64,000 bases of DNA. Origin: Terriglobus albidus. Lineage in GTDB: Bacteria; Acidobacteriota; Terriglobia; Terriglobales; Acidobacteriaceae. The position numbers were made by a program, and so were the translations under genes. How positions within the stretch are numbered: position 1 is the first letter of the stretch; each line of letters begins with the position of its first letter. The notes below the pieces were generated by a model that searched no databases, was not told where the DNA came from, and saw only the letters and a program-made list of their open reading frames with translations. Where the stretch lies: contig NZ_JAGTAS010000050.1 in the NCBI RefSeq assembly GCF_025685425.1, positions 62,001 to 126,000 of the forward strand, given 5' to 3'. Shown one piece after another: positions 8,941 through 41,551 of this stretch.

Positions 8941-9033
8941 TATAGAGCGGGCCTTCAGCCCTTTTCAGCATTGTGGCCTGCTACCTGGGGCGTTGCCCCA
9001 GGCTGGTATAGAACGCGCCTTCAGCGCTTTTTG
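8941..9033. repeat. Extragenic palindromic repeat, family A copy 2
   Basis: Same three-palindrome layout as 112-205 (GGGCCTTCAGCCC, CCTGGGGCGTTGCCCCAGG, GCGCCTTCAGCGC). It occupies the gap between selO and the response regulator. Another small palindrome, CCACCCTAACTCC-GTGAGGGTGG, lies just beyond at 9064-9090 and resembles a sequence at 7222-7250. Confidence 0.7.
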
Positions 9034-28903: not shown

Positions 28904-30559
28904 CTATGTCTTCGATCCTAACCGCATGCTTTCAGAGAGCAGAATGGCATCGGCGACCTCGCGCATCGACTTCCGCCGTTGCCGGCTCTCTTTCTGCATC
29001 ATGCGGTAGGCTTCGTCTTCGGAGATCTTCAGATCACGTTGCAGAATGCCTTTGGCGCGGTCGATCACCTTCCGCGATTCCAGCCGGTCTGCAAGCTGAA
29101 GATTTTCCGTCTCCAGGCGTGCCCGCTCGATTTCAGCGCCTACCAGAACGCCGATGGTCGCTAGCAGTCGGCGCTCGAGATCGGTATGGAAGTAGGGCTG
29201 CTTGTGCTGCAGGTTCAACACGCCCACGACGCGGCCGGCACAGAGGACCGGGATGCAGAGCATGGCTTCGAAGGTGTCTTCTGGGAGACTGCGGAAGGCG
29301 CTGAAGCGCGGATCTTCGCTGGCGCGTTCGGGAATGGAGACCGGCTCGCGATGTTCGGCGACCCATCCGGTGACGCCTTGTCCGACGGAGACCTTCAGTT
29401 GATCGATTTCGGCAGCATGCGGGTTGCGTGAGGCGCGAAGGACAAGTTTGTCCTCTTCCAGCGTGTAGATAAAGCAGGAGTCGCACGGCACCATCGCGCA
29501 GACGCAGGCGACGATGCGTGAAAGCACAACGTGCAATGGGTCGGTTGAGGTGAGGCTGCTGCTTACCTGCTGCAGAATGTCCAGCGGCGCCAGACCATCA
29601 CGGAAGCCCGCCATCGTTGAGGTAGAGGGTGCGACCTGCTGTACCGGCCATGCGGGCGGCTTCGGGACGACGGGCTCTGCCTCATCCTCCGGCTTGGCGC
29701 CGGCAAACGAATCGGACGAACGCTTCTCCGCAAGCACCTTGCGAGCGTACTGCGCTGCTTCATTCACCATGAAGCCCATGCGCGGCCGCGACGGCTCGAA
29801 GTCGGGCTTCAGGCCGTAGTGCAGAATCTCTTCGGTGGTTGTCGGTCCCACTGAGATGATGGCGATGGACTCGAGAGCACGCCGCATCTCTTCGGCGACG
29901 CCCATATCGCTGGCCACCTGAAAGAGATGAATCACCTGCACCGCGGTCATGAACAGAACTACATCGATGGAGCCATCGATGATCTCGCGTATCGCTTCCT
30001 GCAGCGGTGCAATGTCGAGCGGTAGTCCCCACTGATAGACCGGAACCTTGGTGACAGAGGCACAGCGATGAACGAGTTCGGCAATCAGCTCTGGGTTGGT
30101 GGCGCCATACTCCTGCACAGCGACGTCATAGCGCGCGAGCTTATCGCCGTACTTCTTATCCATCTGTGCAACTACTTCGCGCCATGTGCTGGGTTCGGCG
30201 GTGGTGACTGCGACAGGGACCTGCAACTCACGCAATGCGGCGACCGGCTTTACACCTCTGGCCACGATCTGCCGCTTGCGCAGTTGTTGCAATATCTTTT
30301 CGCGATCGAAGGTGGCGCTCAGTACCTCCATCATCTTCGCCACGCCCACACCGGTCATGAAGACGATGAGATCGATCTCCCCTGCGAGCAGGCGGCGGCC
30401 AAACTCCACACAGTCGGTATTCGAGCTGAGCGGAATTTCGCGCATGGATGGAACCACGAGCGGATCACCGTTGTAAGTGCGAATGAGCTTCTCTACCTCG
30501 CGCTCGCGGCGGGTTTCTAGAGATAACACTCGCAATCCTTCAAAGCTGGCGTGGGGCAT
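28904..30559 (-). CDS. HemD-like/GAF/ANTAR fusion regulator
   Basis: Three-domain protein, 551 aa. Residues 1-265 are uroporphyrinogen-III-synthase-like (VLSLETRREREVEKLI, FMTGVGVAKMMEVL, SVGPTTTEEILHYGL). After a Pro/Ala-rich linker, residues 335-485 form a GAF domain (VSVGQGVTGWVAEHREPVSI, GVLNLQHKQPYFHT). Residues 490-547 form an ANTAR domain (LESRKVIDRAKGILQRD, SEDEAYRMMQKESRQRRKSM). ANTAR domains bind paired RNA hairpins to prevent termination, as in NasR of nitrate assimilation. HemD-like domains fused to a DNA-binding domain regulate nitrogen genes in actinobacteria (NnaR). Divergent position from the nitrate-use run supports a regulatory role, perhaps also supplying uroporphyrinogen III for siroheme. 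The ATG follows GGAGA. Confidence 0.88.
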   Translation of the reverse strand: MPHASFEGLRVLSLETRREREVEKLIRTYNGDPLVVPSMREIPLSSNTDCVEFGRRLLAGEIDLIVFMTGVGVAKMMEVLSATFDREKILQQLRKRQIVARGVKPVAALRELQVPVAVTTAEPSTWREVVAQMDKKYGDKLARYDVAVQEYGATNPELIAELVHRCASVTKVPVYQWGLPLDIAPLQEAIREIIDGSIDVVLFMTAVQVIHLFQVASDMGVAEEMRRALESIAIISVGPTTTEEILHYGLKPDFEPSRPRMGFMVNEAAQYARKVLAEKRSSDSFAGAKPEDEAEPVVPKPPAWPVQQVAPSTSTMAGFRDGLAPLDILQQVSSSLTSTDPLHVVLSRIVACVCAMVPCDSCFIYTLEEDKLVLRASRNPHAAEIDQLKVSVGQGVTGWVAEHREPVSIPERASEDPRFSAFRSLPEDTFEAMLCIPVLCAGRVVGVLNLQHKQPYFHTDLERRLLATIGVLVGAEIERARLETENLQLADRLESRKVIDRAKGILQRDLKISEDEAYRMMQKESRQRRKSMREVADAILLSESMRLGSKT

Positions 30560-30861: not shown

Positions 30862-30890
30862 TTGCGTGTATCCCGGTATCGCCCTATACT
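30862..30890 (+). promoter_or_regulatory. Candidate sigma-70-type promoter for the nitrate-use operon
   Basis: TTGCGT at 30862-30867 and TATACT at 30885-30890 are separated by 17 bases, the ideal spacing. Transcription would begin near 30897, leaving a leader of about 240 bases before the nitrite reductase ATG at 31139. The match is good but is prediction only. Confidence 0.5.
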
Positions 30891-30929: not shown

Positions 30930-31138
30930 TTGTCTGAAGGTGCGGCCCCTTGATGCGTCCGCCTTCGCCAAGTCTGAGCATTTCAAGTTTAGTAAGCTGC
31001 TCCGCGACGAGCCTGAGTTCACCGCCGATGTGTGCGTGTGGGATTGCTGCGTTCGTTCCGGAGTTTTTCGCATTGCCGCACAGGTGATTCAGGCCGTCGT
31101 ACATCATCCACCGATTGTTTTGCCGCGTGAGGATGTTT

Positions 31139-32932
31139 ATGTCGACGATGCCACACAATTTCGTCTCGCCGCAGTCGGGCTTCTCCGATGAGCAGGCACA
31201 GTATCTCCGTGGTTTCTTTGCGGGTGTGCAGCAGCGCCCGTTTGTTGGGCACTCGGCATCCGGTCAGATCACTTCGCAGCCTTCGGCCGGTACCGCTAAC
31301 CTTGCTGCGTCCGCAAAGGAAGAGACCTTCTTCGGCACGCCGGTCTCCGAGCTTTGCGCTGAAGAGGTCTGGAAGTACGAGCGCAATCCGCTGGATCTGT
31401 GGGATGAACTGCTGCAGACTGCGGCTTCCAATGAGGCCCCTGACGCAGAGCGTCGCTATCGTTTCAAGTTCCACGGTCTGTTTCATGTGGCCCCGGCGCA
31501 GGACTCCTTCATGCTGCGGATGCGCGTTCCTGGTGGCGTGATGACCTCCGCGCAGATACGCGGTGTCGCTACGATTGCTGAAAAGTTCGGCAACAGCCGC
31601 ATCGATCTCACGACCCGCGCCAATATCCAGCTCCGCGAGTTTGCGCCGAAGGATATCGTCAACGTGCTGAACAGCGTTCGCAAGCTCGGGATGAGCTCGA
31701 TGGGTTCCGGCGCGGATAACATTCGCAACATCACCGCATCGCCCATCTCCGGCTACGATCCGCAGGAGCTGATCGACGTACAGCCCTACGCCGACGCACT
31801 GCAGAACTACATCACCAACTCGCGGGATATGTTCGGCTTGCCGCGCAAGTTCAATATCGCCTTCGACAACGGCGGCGCCATCAGCGCACTTGCTGACACG
31901 AACGATATCGGCTTTGTAGCCGTCTCCGTTGGTGAAGGGAAGAGCGTGCCGGCGGGCGTCTATTTCCGTGTTCTGCTTTGCGGTATTACAGGACATAAGC
32001 AGTTCGCTTCGGACTGTGGTTTGCTGCTGAGACCTGACCAGCTTGTTGCTGTGGCCGCGGCGATGGTCCGCGTCTTTGCGGAGAACGGCGATCGCACCGA
32101 CCGCAAGAAGGCCCGCCTGAAGTATCTTGTCGACCGCTGGGGCGTCGAGAAGTTCCTGGAAGAGACGGAAAAGAAGCTTGCGTTTCCCATCCTGCGCGTC
32201 GATGCCTCCGAGTGCGAAGCCCGCGGTCCGATCAATCGCGCCGGACACCTTGGCGTGCACGCGCAGTCGCAGCCCGGCTTCTCCTATATCGGCGTCTGTG
32301 TTCCTGTGGGTTGGCTGCCTATCGCGCAGGCTCGCGTTATTGCTGATGTTGCCGAGCGCTTCGGCAGCGGTGAGCTCCGTCTGACAGTCTGGCAGAACCT
32401 GCTGATTCCGAATATTCCCGAAGACCGTGTTGCTGAAGCGTGCCGTGTCCTGCATCAGGCGGGACTCGAGACTGCGGCCGGTCGTGTGCAGAGCGGTACG
32501 GTAGCCTGCACCGGCAATCGCGGTTGTAAGTTCGCCGCCGCCGATACCAAGGGCCACGCATTGGAGATTGCGCGTTCGCTGGACAGCATGTTTGTGATCC
32601 ATCAGCCGGTCAACCTGCACGTGACTGGCTGCCCGCACTCCTGCGCGCAGCACTACATCGGCGATATCGGCCTGATGGGCGTAAAGGTTGGCGGTGAAGA
32701 AGGCTACCAGGTCAATCTTGGCGGCGGAGCAGACAACGACCAGGCCATGGCGCGCCAGCTCTTCCCGGCAATGAAGTACAGCGAGGTTCTGCCTGCCCTG
32801 CAGGCGATCTTCAAGGTCTACACCACACAGTGTGTGGAAGGTGAGAGCTTCCTCGCCTTCGCCAACAGGCACAGTGTTGAGGAGTTACGCAGTATGTGTA
32901 CCAGCGATGCCCCTGTGGAGGTGATGGCGTGA
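31139..32932 (+). CDS. nirA: Siroheme/4Fe-4S nitrite (or sulfite) reductase, NirA type
   Basis: Six-electron reductase of the NirA/sulfite-reductase hemoprotein family, 597 aa, cytoplasmic. It has two ferredoxin-like half domains (HVAPAQDSFMLRMRVPGG; QPGFSYIGVCVPVGWLP). The cluster-siroheme cysteines are Cys457, Cys463 (ACTGNRGC), Cys498 and Cys502 (GCPHSC). The ATG at 31139 follows GAGG by six bases; longer starts from 31115 are possible. The N-terminus has FSDEQAQYLRGFFAG, a motif shared with the next gene's product. The neighbouring nitrate reductase and nitrate carrier favour nitrite over sulfite. It overlaps the flavoprotein gene by four bases (GTGA), so the two probably form one NADPH-dependent complex. 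Confidence 0.9.
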   Translation: MSTMPHNFVSPQSGFSDEQAQYLRGFFAGVQQRPFVGHSASGQITSQPSAGTANLAASAKEETFFGTPVSELCAEEVWKYERNPLDLWDELLQTAASNEAPDAERRYRFKFHGLFHVAPAQDSFMLRMRVPGGVMTSAQIRGVATIAEKFGNSRIDLTTRANIQLREFAPKDIVNVLNSVRKLGMSSMGSGADNIRNITASPISGYDPQELIDVQPYADALQNYITNSRDMFGLPRKFNIAFDNGGAISALADTNDIGFVAVSVGEGKSVPAGVYFRVLLCGITGHKQFASDCGLLLRPDQLVAVAAAMVRVFAENGDRTDRKKARLKYLVDRWGVEKFLEETEKKLAFPILRVDASECEARGPINRAGHLGVHAQSQPGFSYIGVCVPVGWLPIAQARVIADVAERFGSGELRLTVWQNLLIPNIPEDRVAEACRVLHQAGLETAAGRVQSGTVACTGNRGCKFAAADTKGHALEIARSLDSMFVIHQPVNLHVTGCPHSCAQHYIGDIGLMGVKVGGEEGYQVNLGGGADNDQAMARQLFPAMKYSEVLPALQAIFKVYTTQCVEGESFLAFANRHSVEELRSMCTSDAPVEVMA

Positions 32933-34707
32933 GCGCGCAGCCCGTCCCTTTTATTCCGCACGATGCTCCCTTCAACGCCGACCAGCGTGCGTGGCTCAAT
33001 GGGTTTCTTGCGGGTCTCTACTCCAGCGCTCCTGCGCCAGAGATTTCGTCCGCGGCGGCGACGGCTTCGGAGAATGTGGCTGTGTACTTCGCCACGCAGA
33101 GCGGAACGGCTGAGCGCTTGGCGAAGAAGTTCGCCAAGGAGTTGAAGACCGCCGGCCACAATGCGACAGTTACGTCACTCACGGATGTAACGCCATCTCA
33201 TCTTGCAGAGCAGAGCAATGCCGTCTTTTTCGTCAGCACCTACGGCGACGGTGAGGCTCCGGATCATGCCAAGGCATTTCGCGATGCGCTGATGGGAGCG
33301 GATTCTCTGACTTTGACGTCACTGCGGTACTCCGTATTCGGTCTCGGAGACAAGACGTACGAGCAGTTCTGCCGCTTCGGCGTGGAACTGGACGATCGTC
33401 TGGCGGAACTCGGGGCGTTGCGCATCACGCCGCGCGTCGAGAGCGATGTTGATGTGGATGAACCCTTCGCTGCCTGGAAAGGTACATGCGTTACACAGAT
33501 CGGCACGAAGTCGAACGGTACGAATGGGACGAAGCACGCTGAGGTAGCGGCACCCGTTGCTGCGGCTCAGCCGGCGAAGCAATCACTGTATTCGCGTGAG
33601 AATCCGCTGCATGCCGCCGTGGTCGAGCGCCGCGCGCTGACCTCGAACATTTCGAGCAAGCTGACCATCCATCTGGGTCTGCAACTGAATGAAGATCTGC
33701 CGTATCAGGCGGGCGATGCGTGCGGTGTTCTGGCGCAGAATGATCCCGCTCTGGTGGACGAGACGCTGTCGCTGCTTCCGTTTGGCGCGGACACGATGGT
33801 GGAGGTTCCCAAGGCAGGCCCCTGTAGCATGCGTGAGGCTCTGCTGCATCACTATCAGCACACACGTTTGAGCCGCAAGATGGTGCAGGCGTTTGCGGAG
33901 AAGACAAAGTGCAAGACTCTGTCGGCCCTGCTGCCGGCGGAACAGGCTGCTCACCTGGACACGTTCCTGTATGACCGCGGCCTGATCGATCTGCTGCATG
34001 AGTATCCTGGCGCAATTGAGACACCGGAAGAGCTGCTTGCGATGCTGCCGCGTCTGGCGCCCCGGCTCTACTCCATCTCATCGAGCCCGGCGAAGCACGG
34101 CCTGGAACTTCACTGCACTATCGGCGTGGTGCGCTATCGCTCGCATAACCGTGAGCGTGGCGGCGTCGCATCCACCATGCTTGCCGAGCGGGTCAACGTG
34201 GGCGAGACGGTGCCGGTCTATATCCAGCCGAACAAGAAGTTCCGGCTTCCCGTCGATGGCAATACTCCCATCATCATGATTGGTCCGGGTACGGGGATTG
34301 CTCCTTTCCGCGGGTTCCTGCATGAGCGCGAAGCGCTTGGGCAGAAGGGCCGCAACTGGCTCTTCTTCGGCGAGCGCAGCGCACAGACTGACTATCTCTA
34401 CAGGGAAGAGCTGCGCTCCATGTCGGAGAGTGGCCATCTTACGCGGCTCGATACCGCCTTCTCCCGCGATCAGGCGCACAAAATCTACGTGCAGGATCGC
34501 ATGATCGAGCACGGCGCGACCTTCTGGCAGTGGCTGCAGGAAGATGCCCGCGTCTATGTCTGCGGCGACGCTGCGCGCATGGCTAAAGATGTGGACTCGG
34601 CGCTGCATACGCTGATCGAGAAGCACGGCGGTATGAGCACCGAAGCTGCCCGCGAATACGTTACGCAGATGCATGACGACGGCCGGTATCACCGCGACGT
34701 CTACTAA
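32929..34707 (+). CDS. NADPH-dependent diflavin reductase (CysJ-like flavoprotein subunit)
   Basis: Electron-donating flavoprotein, 592 aa. Order: N-terminal helical motif FNADQRAWLNGFLAGLYSS (10-28), FMN flavodoxin domain (about 45-190: YFATQSGTAERLA, STYGDGEAPD, GLGDKTYEQF), then FAD domain with RLYSISSSP. The NADPH-binding part has IGPGTGIAPFRGFLHER and a C-terminal DVY aromatic end. GTG 32929 is preferred: GGAGG stands seven bases upstream and it overlaps the nirA stop as GTGA. It is the CysJ layout, but here it is coupled to a nitrite-reductase-like partner in a nitrate locus. It most likely passes NADPH electrons to that reductase, and possibly also to the nitrate reductase. Confidence 0.92.
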   Translation: MSAQPVPFIPHDAPFNADQRAWLNGFLAGLYSSAPAPEISSAAATASENVAVYFATQSGTAERLAKKFAKELKTAGHNATVTSLTDVTPSHLAEQSNAVFFVSTYGDGEAPDHAKAFRDALMGADSLTLTSLRYSVFGLGDKTYEQFCRFGVELDDRLAELGALRITPRVESDVDVDEPFAAWKGTCVTQIGTKSNGTNGTKHAEVAAPVAAAQPAKQSLYSRENPLHAAVVERRALTSNISSKLTIHLGLQLNEDLPYQAGDACGVLAQNDPALVDETLSLLPFGADTMVEVPKAGPCSMREALLHHYQHTRLSRKMVQAFAEKTKCKTLSALLPAEQAAHLDTFLYDRGLIDLLHEYPGAIETPEELLAMLPRLAPRLYSISSSPAKHGLELHCTIGVVRYRSHNRERGGVASTMLAERVNVGETVPVYIQPNKKFRLPVDGNTPIIMIGPGTGIAPFRGFLHEREALGQKGRNWLFFGERSAQTDYLYREELRSMSESGHLTRLDTAFSRDQAHKIYVQDRMIEHGATFWQWLQEDARVYVCGDAARMAKDVDSALHTLIEKHGGMSTEAAREYVTQMHDDGRYHRDVY

Positions 34708-34742
34708 GGCCGTACGAAGCAAGGAACGAGGAGCAAACGAAC

Positions 34743-36338
34743 GTGGCATTGCCGCTTCAGGAACGAGCGATGGAGACCGACAGCGCTGAGCTGGTGCGCC
34801 TCACCCTGGTTGAGGGTGGAGCTGCGCCCTCGCTGGTCAATGCGCTGATCCCATCGCGGCCGCTCGAGGCCGGAGAGCAGTATCGCTTCCACTTCGATAT
34901 GACGAAGTGTATCGGCTGCCGTTCCTGCGAGATTGCCTGCAATGAGCAGAACGGCAACCCTGCTGATATCAAATGGCGTCGTGTTGGCGAACTCGAAGGC
35001 GGCATCTATCCCAACGTGATGCGCACCTACCTCTCGATGGGATGCAATCACTGCCTCAGCGCCGATTGCCTGCGTGGATGTCCCGTCGATGCCTACAGCA
35101 AAGATCCGATTACGGGGATCGTGCTGCACTCTGCCGAAGCCTGCATCGGTTGCCAGTACTGTGTGTGGAACTGCCCCTATAGCGTTCCGCAGTTCAATCC
35201 GGAGCGCGGTGTGGTGGGCAAGTGCGATATGTGCCGCGATCGTCTGCTCGACAACCGCGAGCCTGCATGTGTCAATGCATGTCCGGAGAACGCGATCCAG
35301 ATTGAGATCGTGAACAAGAACGAGTGGACGGCAGACCACTCCCTCGCCGATTCGCCGGGTATGCCTCCTTCCGGTCAGACCGTTTCCACCACGCGCATCA
35401 CTCTGCCTGCGAAGAACTCCGTCACCTGGCTCGACCGTGTCGACACCGGTTCCATTGCGCTTGAGCATGCGCATCCTTCTCTTGTTGTGATGACCTCTGC
35501 GATGCAGGCAGCCTTTGGTCTGCTTTGCGGCCTGTTGCTCGATCGCGATCTCAGCGCTGTGAGCCTGTCGCTGTTGCTGCTTGTTACCGTCATTGCGATC
35601 AACATCTCCATCTTCCATCTTGGACGGCCTGCCTATGCCTGGCGTGCCCTGAAGATGTGGAAGCGTTCGTGGCTGAGCCGTGAGGTTCTCTGCTTCACAC
35701 TCTTCCTGGTCACGCTGACCGTATCCACCGGCGTTGCATGGGCATCGCTGCTGCGCCCTGCGCTGGAGCGCGCGGTGACTCCGCTGGCGATTCTCGCAGT
35801 CATGATCGGGCTTGCAGGCACGCTTGCCAGCGCCCGTATCTATCTGGTGAAGGCGCGTCCGGCCTGGAACATGATGCACACGCCGCTCGACTTCGTGCTC
35901 TCGGCTTTCCTGATGGCGGGGCCAGTGATGGCGGTGATGCAGGCTCCTGCGGTCTGGCTGGCAACGCGGCTGCAGGCAGTTGGGCTGACGGTAGCTCTCC
36001 CTCACGTCGCGCCGCATCCCCGTGCTGTAGCCCTGGCTGCCGTACTTTGGATCGCGAACCAGATCACACGCATCGTCCGGCTTCGCGGTTCAGCGATCTT
36101 TGAGCGCCACGCCAGTTACAACCATCTGCGTGGAGAGCAACTCTGGTGGAAGGTGGCTCTCTCCTGGATCTGCGCCATCCAGGCGGTACTCTTCCTTCTG
36201 GCGCCTATGCCCTGGCTTTCGCTCGCCGCGGCCTCTGCCGCTGTTCTTCTCAACCGCTATCTCTTCTTCGTCTCCGTTGTTCCGCTCAGTATGGGATTGA
36301 CCTTCAGCAATGGGTCTCATGGAAGGGCGGCAGTATGA
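34743..36338 (+). CDS. Fused DmsB-type four-cluster ferredoxin and DmsC-type membrane anchor
   Basis: Electron-transfer and membrane subunit in one chain, 531 aa. Residues 40-200 hold four 4Fe-4S motifs: CIGCRSCEIAC, CNHCLSADCLRGC, CIGCQYCVWNC and CDMCRDR...CVNAC. From about 245 to 525 there are roughly eight membrane helices of the DmsC family, with HLGRPAYAWRALK and KARPAWNMMHTPLD as typical loops. Such subunits oxidise menaquinol and pass electrons to a molybdenum enzyme. The usual arrangement is two genes; here they are joined. GTG 34743 has GAGGAG upstream. It overlaps the nitrate reductase gene by four bases (ATGA). The partnership suggests a quinol-linked route to nitrate, not typical for purely assimilatory enzymes. 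Confidence 0.9.
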   Translation: MALPLQERAMETDSAELVRLTLVEGGAAPSLVNALIPSRPLEAGEQYRFHFDMTKCIGCRSCEIACNEQNGNPADIKWRRVGELEGGIYPNVMRTYLSMGCNHCLSADCLRGCPVDAYSKDPITGIVLHSAEACIGCQYCVWNCPYSVPQFNPERGVVGKCDMCRDRLLDNREPACVNACPENAIQIEIVNKNEWTADHSLADSPGMPPSGQTVSTTRITLPAKNSVTWLDRVDTGSIALEHAHPSLVVMTSAMQAAFGLLCGLLLDRDLSAVSLSLLLLVTVIAINISIFHLGRPAYAWRALKMWKRSWLSREVLCFTLFLVTLTVSTGVAWASLLRPALERAVTPLAILAVMIGLAGTLASARIYLVKARPAWNMMHTPLDFVLSAFLMAGPVMAVMQAPAVWLATRLQAVGLTVALPHVAPHPRAVALAAVLWIANQITRIVRLRGSAIFERHASYNHLRGEQLWWKVALSWICAIQAVLFLLAPMPWLSLAAASAAVLLNRYLFFVSVVPLSMGLTFSNGSHGRAAV

Positions 36339-38572
36339 AGAAGCGGGTGACACAATACGCCAATGCCGTCGCCGAAGACCGCTCCAGAATGCAGCCGCTC
36401 ACATTCCTCCAGCGGATGCAGCGCTGGTTGGGCTTCGATACCGCGCGTACACAGTACCGCTATGGCAAAGATGCGCGCTTCGGTTACATCTCTGAGTCGC
36501 GCATCGCGGATACCTGGACGAAGACGACCTGCGGCTACTGCTCGGTTGGCTGCGGCATGCTGGTGGGCACGCGTAACGGCCGTCCTGTCGCCGCGCGTGG
36601 AAACCCTGATCATCCCGTCAATCTCGGCAAGCTCTGCCCCAAGGGACTCAGCGAGCACCTGATGATCGAGGCTGCCGGCCGCGCTACGACGCCGATGTTG
36701 CGCCGCGGCGGCCGTGGAACTCCGCTCGAGCCGGTCTCCTGGAAGGAAGCCATCGAAGTGATGGTGACGCGCATCGGTTCGATCCAGGAGCGTTTCGGCA
36801 ATGACTCGCTGGGCGTAATCAGCACCGGTCAGTTGGTGACGGAAGAGTTTTATACCCTCGGCAAACTGGTGCAGCTTGGTTTCCGCAGCCGCAATTATGA
36901 CGGCAACACCACGTTGTGCATGGCCAGCGCGGTTTCAGGCTACAAGCTGAGCTTCGGCTCCGACGGACCCCCGGGGGCCTATGCCGACATGGAGATGGCG
37001 GATGTTGTGCTGTTGATTGGGGCGAATATTGCGGACAATCATCCCATCCTGTGCAATCGCCTGCGCAAGAAGCCGGGGCAGATGCTGGTTGTTGTGGATC
37101 CGCGTGTCACCAAGACCGCGATGATGGCCGATCTTCACCTGCCGGTTAAGCCGCGTTCTGACATCGCACTGATCAATGGCATTGCGCATATCCTGCTGCG
37201 CGATGGCCTTGTTGATCGCGAATATATCCTCGAGCACGTTGAGGGGCTGGAGGAGTTCGTCAGCTTTGTCGCCGACTACACGCCGGAGGCGGTCAGCGCG
37301 ACCACAGGACTTACGGTCGAGACCATCGAGAAGGTGGCGCGCCTCTACGGAGAGGCGAAGTCGGCGTTCATCGGCTGGACGATGGGTGTGAATCACTCCA
37401 CCCAGGGTGCACATACCGTCGCGGCGATCAATAACCTCGCAATGATTACAGGCAACATCGGCCGGACGGGTGGCGCTCCGTTCTCCATCACCGGTCAGTG
37501 CAATGCGATGGGGTCGCGTGAGACCAGCTTCACCTCGGCCTTGCCTGGCTATCGGAAGTTCGATAATGCGGAAGATCGCAAGGCGCTCGCTCAGCTCTGG
37601 AAGATCGAGGAAGAAGAGCTGCCCACGGCACGCGGCCTTGCGTACCCGGATATCGTCGAAGCTGCCGTCAAGGGGCAGGTCAAGGCAATCTGGATCATTG
37701 CGACGAATCCCGTGGTCTCATTCCCGAATTTGAATCTGCTGAGGCAGGCCTTTGAGACGACGGAGTTCATCGTCGTGCAGGACGGTTTCTATCCCACGCC
37801 AACGATGGACTATGCCGATCTGGTTCTTCCCGCGGCCATCTGGGGTGAGAAGGAAGGGACGTATACCAATTCCGAGCGTCGTGTCAGCAAGGTGAATGCC
37901 TTTGCCACGCCTCCGGGGGAAGCCCGTCCTGACTTCGATATCTTCCTCGCGCTGGCCGAGCGTCTGGGCGTGAAGGACAGGCTCTTTCCGGGATGGCGCA
38001 GCACGCATGATGCCTGGCTCGAGTGGCAGAAGGTCTCCGCGGGCCGCATGTGCGATTACAGCGGATTTACCTGGCAGCAGCTCGAAGAGGAAGGCGGCAG
38101 GCAGTGGGGCGGGGAACGGCTCTACGGCGATGGCCAGTTCCCTCGCGAGAATGGCCGCGCTCTGCTGCACTGTGTTCCGTGTCTCCCGTTTGTGGAGCAG
38201 CCGAACACAGAGTTCGATTTGATCTTGAACACCGGACGCACCGTTGAGCACTGGCACACGCGCACCAAGACCGGCGCTGTCGCCATGCTTGACGCCATGT
38301 CTCCCAATGCATGGCTTGAGATGAATCCGGCCGATGCTTCGCGGCTCTCGCTGCGCCAGCATGATCGTGTCACGGTGCGCTCCAGGCGTGCCTCCGTTCG
38401 CGACGTTGAGTTGCGTATCACCGGGATTGTCGCTCCCGGACAGGTCTTCATGCCGTTCCATTTTGCTGAGCAGAACTCAAACCTCGTGACGCTGGGTGCC
38501 TTTGACCCAATCAGTCGCGAGCCTAACTTCAAGCAGTGCGCTGTGTGTGTCGAGCGTTCCGCTCTGAAATAG
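36335..38572 (+). CDS. nasA: NasA/NarB-type molybdopterin nitrate reductase catalytic subunit
   Basis: Molybdopterin oxidoreductase reducing nitrate to nitrite, 745 aa. The 4Fe-4S ligands are Cys66, Cys69, Cys73 (CGYCSVGC) and Cys101 (KLCPKG). Further family segments are CMASAVSGYK, LIGANIADNHPI, MGVNHSTQGAHTV, GGAPFSITGQCNAMGSRETS and a C-terminal molydopterin-dinucleotide domain with NTGRTVEHWHTRTKT. There is no Tat signal, so it works in the cytoplasm. ATG 36335 overlaps the previous stop as ATGA, excluding the longer in-frame extension upstream. The NasA-type sequence with a DmsB-DmsC-like partner is unusual. Assimilatory function is likely from the nitrite reductase and carrier genes, but electron supply is uncertain. 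Confidence 0.92.
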   Translation: MKKRVTQYANAVAEDRSRMQPLTFLQRMQRWLGFDTARTQYRYGKDARFGYISESRIADTWTKTTCGYCSVGCGMLVGTRNGRPVAARGNPDHPVNLGKLCPKGLSEHLMIEAAGRATTPMLRRGGRGTPLEPVSWKEAIEVMVTRIGSIQERFGNDSLGVISTGQLVTEEFYTLGKLVQLGFRSRNYDGNTTLCMASAVSGYKLSFGSDGPPGAYADMEMADVVLLIGANIADNHPILCNRLRKKPGQMLVVVDPRVTKTAMMADLHLPVKPRSDIALINGIAHILLRDGLVDREYILEHVEGLEEFVSFVADYTPEAVSATTGLTVETIEKVARLYGEAKSAFIGWTMGVNHSTQGAHTVAAINNLAMITGNIGRTGGAPFSITGQCNAMGSRETSFTSALPGYRKFDNAEDRKALAQLWKIEEEELPTARGLAYPDIVEAAVKGQVKAIWIIATNPVVSFPNLNLLRQAFETTEFIVVQDGFYPTPTMDYADLVLPAAIWGEKEGTYTNSERRVSKVNAFATPPGEARPDFDIFLALAERLGVKDRLFPGWRSTHDAWLEWQKVSAGRMCDYSGFTWQQLEEEGGRQWGGERLYGDGQFPRENGRALLHCVPCLPFVEQPNTEFDLILNTGRTVEHWHTRTKTGAVAMLDAMSPNAWLEMNPADASRLSLRQHDRVTVRSRRASVRDVELRITGIVAPGQVFMPFHFAEQNSNLVTLGAFDPISREPNFKQCAVCVERSALK

Positions 38573-38712
38573 CACTGTTCTGTAAGACTTTCTCGCGCCC
38601 ATGGCCGCCGCGAGTGTTGTACCGAGCCGAACCTGGAAGTTCGCTCCTGCCGTAGCAGTACTTCGTGCCGCAGTTATATTTCGACATTTCAGATCTCAGG
38701 GAGCCTTTCAAA

Positions 38713-39972
38713 ATGGCCAACGTAAAGCACTTTCTAAAATCCGGTCATCCAGCGACGCTTTTCGCATCGTTCCTCTACTTCGACTTCACCTTTGCTGTGT
38801 GGGTGCTGAACGGAGCGATGGGACCTTTCATCACCGAGCAGTTCCACCTCTCGCCGGCGCAGGTCGGCCTGATGGTCTCGCTGCCCACCATGGCAGGTGC
38901 TCTCATGCGCTTTCCGCTCGGCGTGCTGAGCCAGTACATCGGCCGTAAGAGCGCGGCGATCGTCGAGATGAGCTGCATCATCGTAGCGCTTCTCTATGGC
39001 TACTTCTTCGTGCACTCGTTCTCCAACGTGCTGGCAATGGGCGTTCTGCTGGGCACCGCCGGAGCAAGCTTCGGCGTAGCTCTCTCACTCGGCGCCGGCT
39101 GGTTCCCCAAACAGTACAAGGGACTGGCGATGGGAATCGCCGGAGCCGGGAACAGCGGTACGGCCGTCGCAGCCTTCTTCGCGCCGCGCCTGGCGAAGGC
39201 GTTCGGATGGTCGCACGTCTATGGCTTTGCAGCGCTGTTCATGCTGCTTCCGTTGATCGTGATGATCGTCTTCGCCAAGGAGCCGCCTGACGCCGAACAT
39301 CAGACGCTGCGCCAGCACCTCAAGTGCCTGGTGGAGCGCGATGGCTGGTACTTCAACCTTATCTACATCATCACTTTCGGCGGATTCCTCGGTCTCGCGA
39401 CCTTTCTGCCCTCGCTCTTCGTCGCGCAGTTCCACATTCCAAAGACGCAGGCCGGAACGCTCACCATGTGTGCCACGCTGCTTGGCAGCATGACCCGTGT
39501 TGTCGGTGGATGGTTTGCTGACCGTGTCGGCGGCGTCACAACGCTGAGTGTCGTCTTCCTGGTCGCCATTGCCGGCATCTTCGGCCTGGTGACTTCACCG
39601 TCCCTGGTAGTGACCACGGTGCTCTTCATGCTCTGCTTCGCCGCGCTTGGTGCAGGCAATGGCGCGACCTTCCAGCTTGTTCCGCTGCGCTGGCCGATTG
39701 CAACCGCGGTTGCCGGCAGCATGGTGGGTGAGATCGGCGCGCTGGGTGGCTCCATTCTGCCGAACGTGCTTGGGCAGTCCAAACAGCACACGGGATCATT
39801 CGCAGCAGGCTTCGCGGCCTACGCCGTCTTCGCGCTGCTGGTGCTGGTGATGCTGCGCATCGTTTCACGGAAGTGGACGCGTACCTGGGTCGGAGAAGGC
39901 GGCAGAGCCCTTGCTCATACCGCGATCGACCCCATGGATACGGAGAGCCAGGAGGAAGCGCTCGCCGTGTAA
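38713..39972 (+). CDS. NarK/NasA-family nitrate/nitrite MFS transporter
   Basis: Twelve-helix inner-membrane carrier for nitrate or nitrite, 419 aa. The nitrate signature motifs are visible: GIAGAGNSGTAVAAFFAPRL in helix 5 and FAALGAGNGATFQLVPLRW in helix 11. The arginine in MAGALMRFPLG is the likely substrate-binding residue of helix 2. ATG 38713 follows GGGAG by nine bases; an ATG 16 codons earlier (38665) is less convincing. The 140-base gap after nasA may carry its own control. Whether it is a proton symporter or nitrate/nitrite exchanger cannot be told from sequence alone. Confidence 0.92.
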   Translation: MANVKHFLKSGHPATLFASFLYFDFTFAVWVLNGAMGPFITEQFHLSPAQVGLMVSLPTMAGALMRFPLGVLSQYIGRKSAAIVEMSCIIVALLYGYFFVHSFSNVLAMGVLLGTAGASFGVALSLGAGWFPKQYKGLAMGIAGAGNSGTAVAAFFAPRLAKAFGWSHVYGFAALFMLLPLIVMIVFAKEPPDAEHQTLRQHLKCLVERDGWYFNLIYIITFGGFLGLATFLPSLFVAQFHIPKTQAGTLTMCATLLGSMTRVVGGWFADRVGGVTTLSVVFLVAIAGIFGLVTSPSLVVTTVLFMLCFAALGAGNGATFQLVPLRWPIATAVAGSMVGEIGALGGSILPNVLGQSKQHTGSFAAGFAAYAVFALLVLVMLRIVSRKWTRTWVGEGGRALAHTAIDPMDTESQEEALAV

Positions 39973-40078: not shown

Positions 40079-41551
40079 GTGAAATCCGCTCTCTTCGCCC
40101 TTATTTCGGTGGCATCTGTTGCGGCTTCGTTTGCGCAGGCCCCGCCCGCTCCTCCATCGTCTGCTGTAAATGTCACCGCTATTCTGCGTGAGCGCAGCAA
40201 CGTGACGCAGTGGTTTGCTGCGACGCCAACCTCGGAACGTTATGCCCACCAGGACTCATTGCTCCGGCTCGGCATAACGCAGCGCATTCGCCAGTGGGAC
40301 TATCAGCTCGAGATCGGTCAAAGCGCTGAGCTTGCGCTGCCGACCGATGCGGTTTCACCGGTTGCCGCGCAAGGCCAGCTAGGTCTTGGCGGCACCTACT
40401 ATGCCGCGAACAGCAACAATAGCAATCCCGCGGCTGCTTCTTTTCGTCAGGGGTTCCTGCGCTACCACTTCAAGAATGAGCCGGATACCTTGCGCGTAGG
40501 CCGCTTCGAATTCTTTGACGGTCAGGAGATCGTTCCGAAGAACAATACGTTGCTTTGGATACAGACCAACCGTGTCGGCCATCGACTTATCGGCAATTTC
40601 GGTTTCTCGAATGGACAGCGTTCCTTCGACGGCATTGAAGGCAAGCTTGGCGGCAAGAGCTGGAATCTGACGGCGATGGGCGGCCGCGCGACGCAGGGCG
40701 TCTTCAACATGAACGCCAACCCTGAATTGAACGTCGATGTGCAGTACCTGGCTTACACGCATGTGCTGGCAAAACAGCGCGTCATCGTTCGCGGCTTTGC
40801 TCTCGGCTATCACGACGGCCGTACCGGTCTGACCAAGACGGATAACCGCAGTGCTGCTGCGCGCGCGCTCGATCACAAGAACATTCGCATCGGCACCTTC
40901 GGCGGCAATCTATTGGCTGCTGTGCCGGCAGGGCGCACGACGGTCGACTTCCTCCTCTGGGGTGCGGGGCAGGTTGGCTCCTGGGGACTGCAGGATCATT
41001 CGGCAGGAGCGATTGCGGTGGAAGGCGGTCTGCGCTTCGATAAGGTCAAGACCACACCCTGGGTTCGCGGCGGCTATCTACGCTCGACCGGCGATAACAA
41101 TGCGACCGACGGGACGCACAACACCTTCTTTCAGGTGTTGCCGACACCGCGTATCTATGCGCGCTTCCCGTTCTACAACTCGATGAACTCGACCGACTCC
41201 TTCGTTCAGCTTATCGATAAGCCCAGCAAACGGGTCGATCTGCGTTCCGATCTTCACTTCCTCAAGCTCACCTCGGCCTCCGATTTCTGGTACCAGGGTG
41301 GCGGAGCCTTCGATAACAAGGTCTTTGGTTATACCGGACGACCGGCAAACAACCACAACAGCTTCAGTTCGCTGTATGACATCAGCGCCGACATTACGTT
41401 GACCAAGCAGTTTTCGCTGGGAACTTACTACGCGCATGCCTTCGGAAAGTCAGTCGTCAGTGCGATTTACCCGACGGAGGGCGGAGCGAACTACGGCTAC
41501 CTGGAGTTGAACTATCGTTTGCAGAAGGTCCTGGGCGGCCACAGCCACTAG
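40079..41551 (+). CDS. Outer-membrane porin of the alginate-export (AlgE-like) family
   Basis: Predicted beta-barrel outer-membrane protein, 490 aa. The signal peptide is KSALFALISVASVAASFAQA. The mature part has alternating amphipathic strands and family-like segments such as LRVGRFEFFDGQEIVPKN, RVGHRLIGNFGFSNGQRSFDG and a C-terminal NYGYLELNYRL. GTG 40079 is well supported by AAGGAG eight bases upstream. The family is named for alginate export, but many members are general or anion-selective porins. It is last in the nitrate run, 106 bases after the transporter, which suggests an outer-membrane entry route for nitrate. No alginate genes are nearby. Function inferred from context. Confidence 0.82.
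   Translation: MKSALFALISVASVAASFAQAPPAPPSSAVNVTAILRERSNVTQWFAATPTSERYAHQDSLLRLGITQRIRQWDYQLEIGQSAELALPTDAVSPVAAQGQLGLGGTYYAANSNNSNPAAASFRQGFLRYHFKNEPDTLRVGRFEFFDGQEIVPKNNTLLWIQTNRVGHRLIGNFGFSNGQRSFDGIEGKLGGKSWNLTAMGGRATQGVFNMNANPELNVDVQYLAYTHVLAKQRVIVRGFALGYHDGRTGLTKTDNRSAAARALDHKNIRIGTFGGNLLAAVPAGRTTVDFLLWGAGQVGSWGLQDHSAGAIAVEGGLRFDKVKTTPWVRGGYLRSTGDNNATDGTHNTFFQVLPTPRIYARFPFYNSMNSTDSFVQLIDKPSKRVDLRSDLHFLKLTSASDFWYQGGGAFDNKVFGYTGRPANNHNSFSSLYDISADITLTKQFSLGTYYAHAFGKSVVSAIYPTEGGANYGYLELNYRLQKVLGGHSH

Follow-up and report, generated by a model that had tools for sequence, protein, structure and literature searches.

Relation to Described ANTAR and HemD-Type Regulators

The closest described systems are the proteobacterial regulators NasR (NIT-ANTAR) and NasT (REC-ANTAR), EutV/EutW of Enterococcus, and the actinobacterial NnaR proteins (HemD-Trans_reg_C). 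In the structure of EutV with RNA, the sole base-specific contact is to the G at loop position 4 (G4), which is held by stacking of Tyr164 together with Arg142, Lys149 and Glu160, while A at loop position 1 (A1) is uncontacted (PMC8934654). The two eut hairpins are joined by linkers of 5–12 nt, and longer ones abolish control (PMC3369931, PMC8934654). Streptomyces NnaR is without HemD activity according to published work as cited in PMC6277429.

The locus described here lies in a window of 64,000 nt from Terriglobus albidus (contig NZ_JAGTAS010000050.1, positions 62,001 to 126,000) and encodes a HemD-GAF-ANTAR fusion protein, which, judging from its sequence and surroundings, is probably a dedicated regulator of nitrate assimilation in Acidobacteriaceae that acts by transcription antitermination. 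By its predicted domains the fusion is none of NasR, NasT, EutV and NnaR, with an output like that of the first three and a HemD part like that of the last. It has in common with NasR and NasT the ANTAR output, the nitrate assimilation genes and leader hairpins with six-base loops; however, its sensor part is HemD-GAF in place of NIT or REC/NasS, C (C1) replaces their A at loop position 1, and the architecture was found here only in Acidobacteriaceae. The G4-contact residues and the presence of two hairpins are common with EutV/EutW, and the overlap between the second hairpin (P2) and a predicted terminator is matched in the window and in two further loci (L003 and L080), but is not general among the leaders; A1 and Met172 of the eut system are replaced by C1 and an invariant Arg526, the REC domain is missing, and the linker between the first hairpin (P1) and P2 is mostly 23–41 nt. 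Compared with the Ramesh-type dual-hexaloop RNA, the leaders thus show six-base loops and G4 but lack A1 and the short linker.

The initial annotation had drawn a parallel with NnaR, which stands insofar as a HemD-like part occurs in a regulator of nitrate/nitrite genes in both; otherwise it is an analogy only, as NnaR carries a DNA-binding winged helix (seen in the NnaR-type loci L219 and L220) where the fusion has GAF-ANTAR, and the NnaR-type proteins compared lack many of the HemD residues. Acidobacterial HemD-HemE, standalone HemD and Thermus-type HemD belong to the same HEM4 sub-family and share its invariant residues; these are or look biosynthetic, whereas the HemD of the fusion is joined to GAF-ANTAR beside nitrate genes. 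Neither a description of a HemD and ANTAR combination nor a paper on ANTAR control in Acidobacteriota was found in the open-access literature. If the reading proposed here is true, the fusion would bring to ANTAR nitrate regulation a sensor that resembles neither NIT (NasR) nor REC/NasS (NasT), and the ANTAR target rule would widen from A1/G4 to C1/G4 loops with longer linkers, so that targets of this type could escape searches relying on the classic motif.

Domain Organization of the Fusion Protein

The fusion is a single open reading frame of 551 amino acids with an ATG start (28904..30559, minus strand), and the three domains attributed to it by the initial annotation were recovered in this one frame, each exceeding its curated Pfam cut-off: HEM4 (HemD) at residues 22–265 (29765..30496, 101 bits against 27.5), GAF at residues 342–477 (29129..29536, 62.7 bits against 22.4) and ANTAR (PF03861) at residues 488–540 (28940..29098, 67.2 bits against 27.3), all on the minus strand. 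Pfam gave no match to the NIT nitrate-sensing domain in the protein, and the winged helix (Trans_reg_C) of the NnaR regulators is absent, with GAF-ANTAR in its place. An AlphaFold model (mean pLDDT 74, moderate quality) resembled, in its N-terminal part, the Thermus HemD 1wcx (TM 0.81 on the target) and, in its middle part, PtsP-type GAF domains; for the C-terminal part, the sequence matches in the PDB were ANTAR proteins including EutV, Rv1626-type, NasR and AmiR. A search of the genome showed the fusion to be the only ANTAR protein encoded there.

The ANTAR residues that contact RNA, on which the initial annotation had placed weight, are kept in the alignment. With residue numbers mapped from EutV by alignment at a two-residue offset, the equivalents of the four G4-contact residues (Y518, R496, K503 and E514) are invariant across the fusions. 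The plug position is occupied by Met172 in EutV, and by Met also in Rv1626-type proteins, NasR and AmiR, whereas every fusion has Arg there (Arg526), as do the acidobacterial GAF-ANTAR proteins compared; the exchange of Met for Arg may go with the C1 loops described below.

Distribution and Association with Nitrate Assimilation Genes

A scan of the species-genome collection yielded 10 orthologues, all from Acidobacteriaceae, nearly full length and about 50–97% identical, and a full-length fusion was present in 75 of the 298 genomes of the order, one of these copies being cut at residue 447. Because of this conservation, the frame is taken to be a real gene and no assembly accident. Across 347 genomes of the phylum, no fusion was listed outside Acidobacteriaceae. 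A tree of the HemD region places the fusions in a single group inside the family, together with two proteins (L068 and L069) that have lost GAF-ANTAR; most of the standalone HemDs and every HemD-HemE fusion branch off outside this group.

In the window, the fusion gene is divergent from a plus-strand run encoding a NirA-type siroheme nitrite reductase (ORF 31115..32932, with a likely ATG start at 31133 or 31139), a CysJ-like flavoprotein reductase (32896..34707), a 4Fe-4S ferredoxin fused to a DmsC-type membrane anchor (FeS/DmsC, 34743..36338), a NasA-type molybdopterin nitrate reductase (ORF 36146..38572, with a true start probably later), an MFS transporter that is a probable NarK-like nitrate/nitrite carrier (38665..39972) and an outer-membrane porin of the Alginate_exp family, a conserved neighbour (40079..41551). 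The CysJ-like flavoprotein after NirA and the DmsC-anchored ferredoxin adjoining NasA (31115–36338) represent an unusual, possibly membrane-linked assimilatory nitrate reductase set.

The link between the fusion and nitrate genes proposed by the initial annotation was borne out: NirA was detected in 63 of the 298 genomes, and the fusion accompanies it in 62 (Fisher p about 1e-49, the kinship of the genomes being ignored). In the remaining genome (G267), a contig begins only 744 bases from nirA, and this exception is attributed to the assembly edge because the sequence encoded there, ILLNDDLRR (translated by eye), reads as a fusion-like C-terminus. In most loci examined, about 0.3–4.4 kb separate the fusion gene from nirA; the two genes run in the same direction or in opposite ones, the porin often stands between them, and the gene order is conserved. 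Conversely, 13 genomes contained a fusion without NirA at the threshold used, and those examined adjoin SPFH/SPOR, nickel-insertion/AIRC or ROK/SDR genes; therefore, not every copy is a nitrate regulator. On gene context, the result did not go against the initial annotation, though some genomes have related fusions without nitrate neighbours (L054–L064). Fusion paralogues adjoining SPFH (Band_7) and SPOR-domain genes, with no nitrate genes, were observed at L054–L058.

Paired Hexaloop Hairpins in the nirA Leaders

Beyond what the initial annotation had seen, a candidate RNA target was found in the nirA leader. In the window, a promoter-like site of nirA predicted from sequence (TTGCGT-N17-TATACT, 30862..30890, plus strand), which also occurs in L003, L004 and L012 (the last by eye, with N17 from TTGCGC), is followed on the same strand by P1, GCGGCCC[CTTGAT]GCGTCCGC (30942..30962; first bracket, loop), with an imperfect stem, and by P2, GCTC[CGCGAC]GAGC (30999..31012), both with C1/G4 loops. 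The nirA leaders carry a pair of hexaloop hairpins with G in the fourth loop position, P2 being present in nearly all leaders and P1 in about two thirds. P2 is near-invariant, with the form GCTC[CNNGNN]GAGC and usually the loop CNNGAN. The strict P2 motif GCTCCNNGNNGAGC occurred 54 times on both strands of 2.1 Mb of loci, against about 2 copies expected from base counts, and most copies lie just upstream of nirA. Seven copies stand upstream of a separately standing FeS/DmsC-NasA unit, and this second site, which is not inherited from the nirA leader, speaks more strongly for a shared regulon than any other single argument. The strict motif was also present in 15 of another 19 nirA leaders, part of which came from genomes that had been sampled before, and variant hairpins were seen by eye in the other 4. 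Searched genome-wide, P2 alone occurred in numbers at chance level, and Rfam gave no RNA family at the nirA leader of the window.

P1 was assessed by scoring hexaloop hairpins, with no loop preselected, in the 98 nt upstream of P2 in 46 leaders and in dinucleotide shuffles. C1/G4 loops were found in 30 of the 46 leaders against 4.9 (sd 2.1) in shuffles and T1/G4 loops in 11 against 3.3, while classic A1/G4 loops stayed at chance (3 against 3.2); these leader statistics are inflated because the leaders share ancestry. The P1 stem varies with its pairing kept, four pairs being changed on both sides, a count that leans towards structure since the rows were preselected for pairing; the P2 stem never varies and therefore offers no covariation evidence. 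A covariance model trained on 20 leaders matched strongly (E below 1e-6) in 33 genomes, in every case at nirA leaders; most were training genomes, and two (G029 and G051) matched strongly although neither gave a training sequence. The more divergent leader of the window itself was not reached by this model. Among non-nitrate matches, the best (G105) was rejected as a target since it lies inside a coding region, and three weaker ones were rejected as they appear by eye to be coding too. Likewise set aside was a perfect A1/G4 hairpin in the window, GGCGTTTTC[ATTGCG]GAAAACGCC, which precedes the promoter-like site and is missing from L003 and L012.

Further hairpins were noticed in some leaders. 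In the clade whose fusion gene is the immediate upstream neighbour of nirA and runs in its direction, GAGAC/GTCTC hairpins bearing T1/G4 loops were seen by eye ahead of P1. In L091, L093 and L113, a third hairpin, its hexaloop reading CCCGAT or CCCGAC, is located some 36 nt upstream of P1.

The fusion protein most likely binds the P1 and P2 hairpins and switches the genes on, as inferred from these comparisons. An improbable alternative is that P1 and P2 are bound by another factor or act alone, the fusion having different targets; the missing A1 and short linker and the fusion paralogues without nitrate genes nearby would fit such a scheme, but the fusion is the only ANTAR protein of the genome, its co-occurrence with nirA is near-absolute, the G4-contact residues are conserved, and hexaloop G4 hairpins are the known ligand of ANTAR domains.

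Predicted Terminator and Proposed Antitermination Switch

The whole of P2 in the window can pair, at 13 of 14 bases, with the segment 31051–31064, which is directly followed by U residues (p 0.005 against shuffles), and this 3' arm with its U-tract (31051..31068, plus strand) forms a predicted terminator that excludes P2. The pairing is identical in L003 and is kept at 12 of 14 in L080 with changed bases. The minimum-energy fold contains a long helix (31004..31100, plus strand) that excludes P2 too. Across the leaders, the region after P2 is more stable than shuffles (mean z −2.2), the mean engagement of the P2 3' arm was not significant (p 0.15), neither one shared terminator nor a contiguous competing helix was found over all leaders, and whole-P2 pairing with a U-tailed segment was at chance outside the near relatives of the window. 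An antitermination switch of P2 against a terminator is therefore well drawn for the window and its near relatives, where the putative overlap is found, and plausible for the other leaders.

Antitermination of the nitrate genes is, taken as a whole, a reading well supported by sequence. In the proposed mechanism, the ANTAR domain would become active on RNA when the HemD and GAF sensor part reports the right state, and would then bind the six-base loops of P1 and P2 as the nirA mRNA emerges. With P2 held folded, its strand would be kept from pairing with the downstream terminator segment, the terminator would not form, and the nirA operon would be transcribed. Rather less likely, yet with a real chance of being right, is a scheme in which the P1 and P2 loops are bound and the outcome is Rho-dependent termination, or an effect on mRNA stability or on the translation of nirA; it would agree with the failure to find a common U-tailed terminator across the leaders and with the position of P2 in L009, L067 and L108, just 40–61 nt from the nirA start, which leaves little room for a terminator. 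Against this, the P2-overlapping hairpin of 13/14 bp that runs into a U-tract in the window and its near relatives is the textbook ANTAR arrangement.

Conservation of the HemD and GAF Domains

The HemD domain is about 43–51% identical to acidobacterial standalone HemD and HemD-HemE. Of the 31 positions chosen, at which acidobacterial HemD-HemE fusions never vary and standalone HemDs hardly do, it keeps every one. A Deinococcus HemD beside nirBD keeps 26 of the 31, and actinobacterial NnaR-type proteins keep 15–18, a gap that distance partly explains since the positions were chosen within the family. The domain is, on this alignment, clearly not decayed, and it may bind or even make uroporphyrinogen III, because all the residues conserved in biosynthetic relatives are kept. 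Related HemDs adjoin siroheme genes, with a Met8-type gene in L072 and a tetrapyrrole methylase gene beside the fusion in L065.

The same evidence bears on what the domain does for the fusion. It could simply be a working uroporphyrinogen-III synthase that supplies NirA with siroheme and senses nothing, leaving GAF alone as the sensor; this somewhat unlikely possibility would suit the complete set of invariant positions and the adjoining siroheme or nirBD genes of the relatives. However, a second, distant HemD lies elsewhere in the genome beside a hemC-like gene (hemC read by eye), so that the activity is not obviously needed, and the HemD domain is also kept in paralogues away from nitrate genes. 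For the signal, the least certain part of the proposal, our best guess is that uroporphyrinogen III or a siroheme intermediate occupies the HemD site and that GAF possibly binds a nitrogen-status ligand in addition. Tentatively, the fusion might then be a trigger enzyme, in which an active or ligand-binding HemD would let the uroporphyrinogen III/siroheme state gate ANTAR antitermination of nirA, the variant C1/G4 code being read with Arg where the Met plug stood. Since the fusion would link an enzyme fold of the heme pathway to RNA-level control of a siroheme-dependent enzyme, such cofactor-gated antitermination is directly testable.

In the GAF domain, a CDSC motif (residues 359–362; 29474–29485, minus strand) is invariant in the fusions, and the GAF cysteines possibly form a redox or metal site. 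Further cysteines at residues 435 and 440 are often conserved.

Several other gene arrangements were observed around related HemD genes. On Deinococcus plasmids, a related HemD gene overlaps nirD behind nirB (L149, 7992–8825). At L137 (4373–8118), a related HemD gene stands divergent to genes for a PAPS reductase and for a sulfite/nitrite-reductase-type protein carrying a ThiS-like domain at its C-terminus. In other Acidobacteriota, HemD is fused to HemE (URO-D) at L129 (6560–8584), where a ferrochelatase gene follows, and likewise at L130–L134, the domain scan covering L129. Elsewhere in the window, two copies of the Acido-Lenti-1 RNA (Rfam RF01687) are located at 156–200 and 8984–9028.
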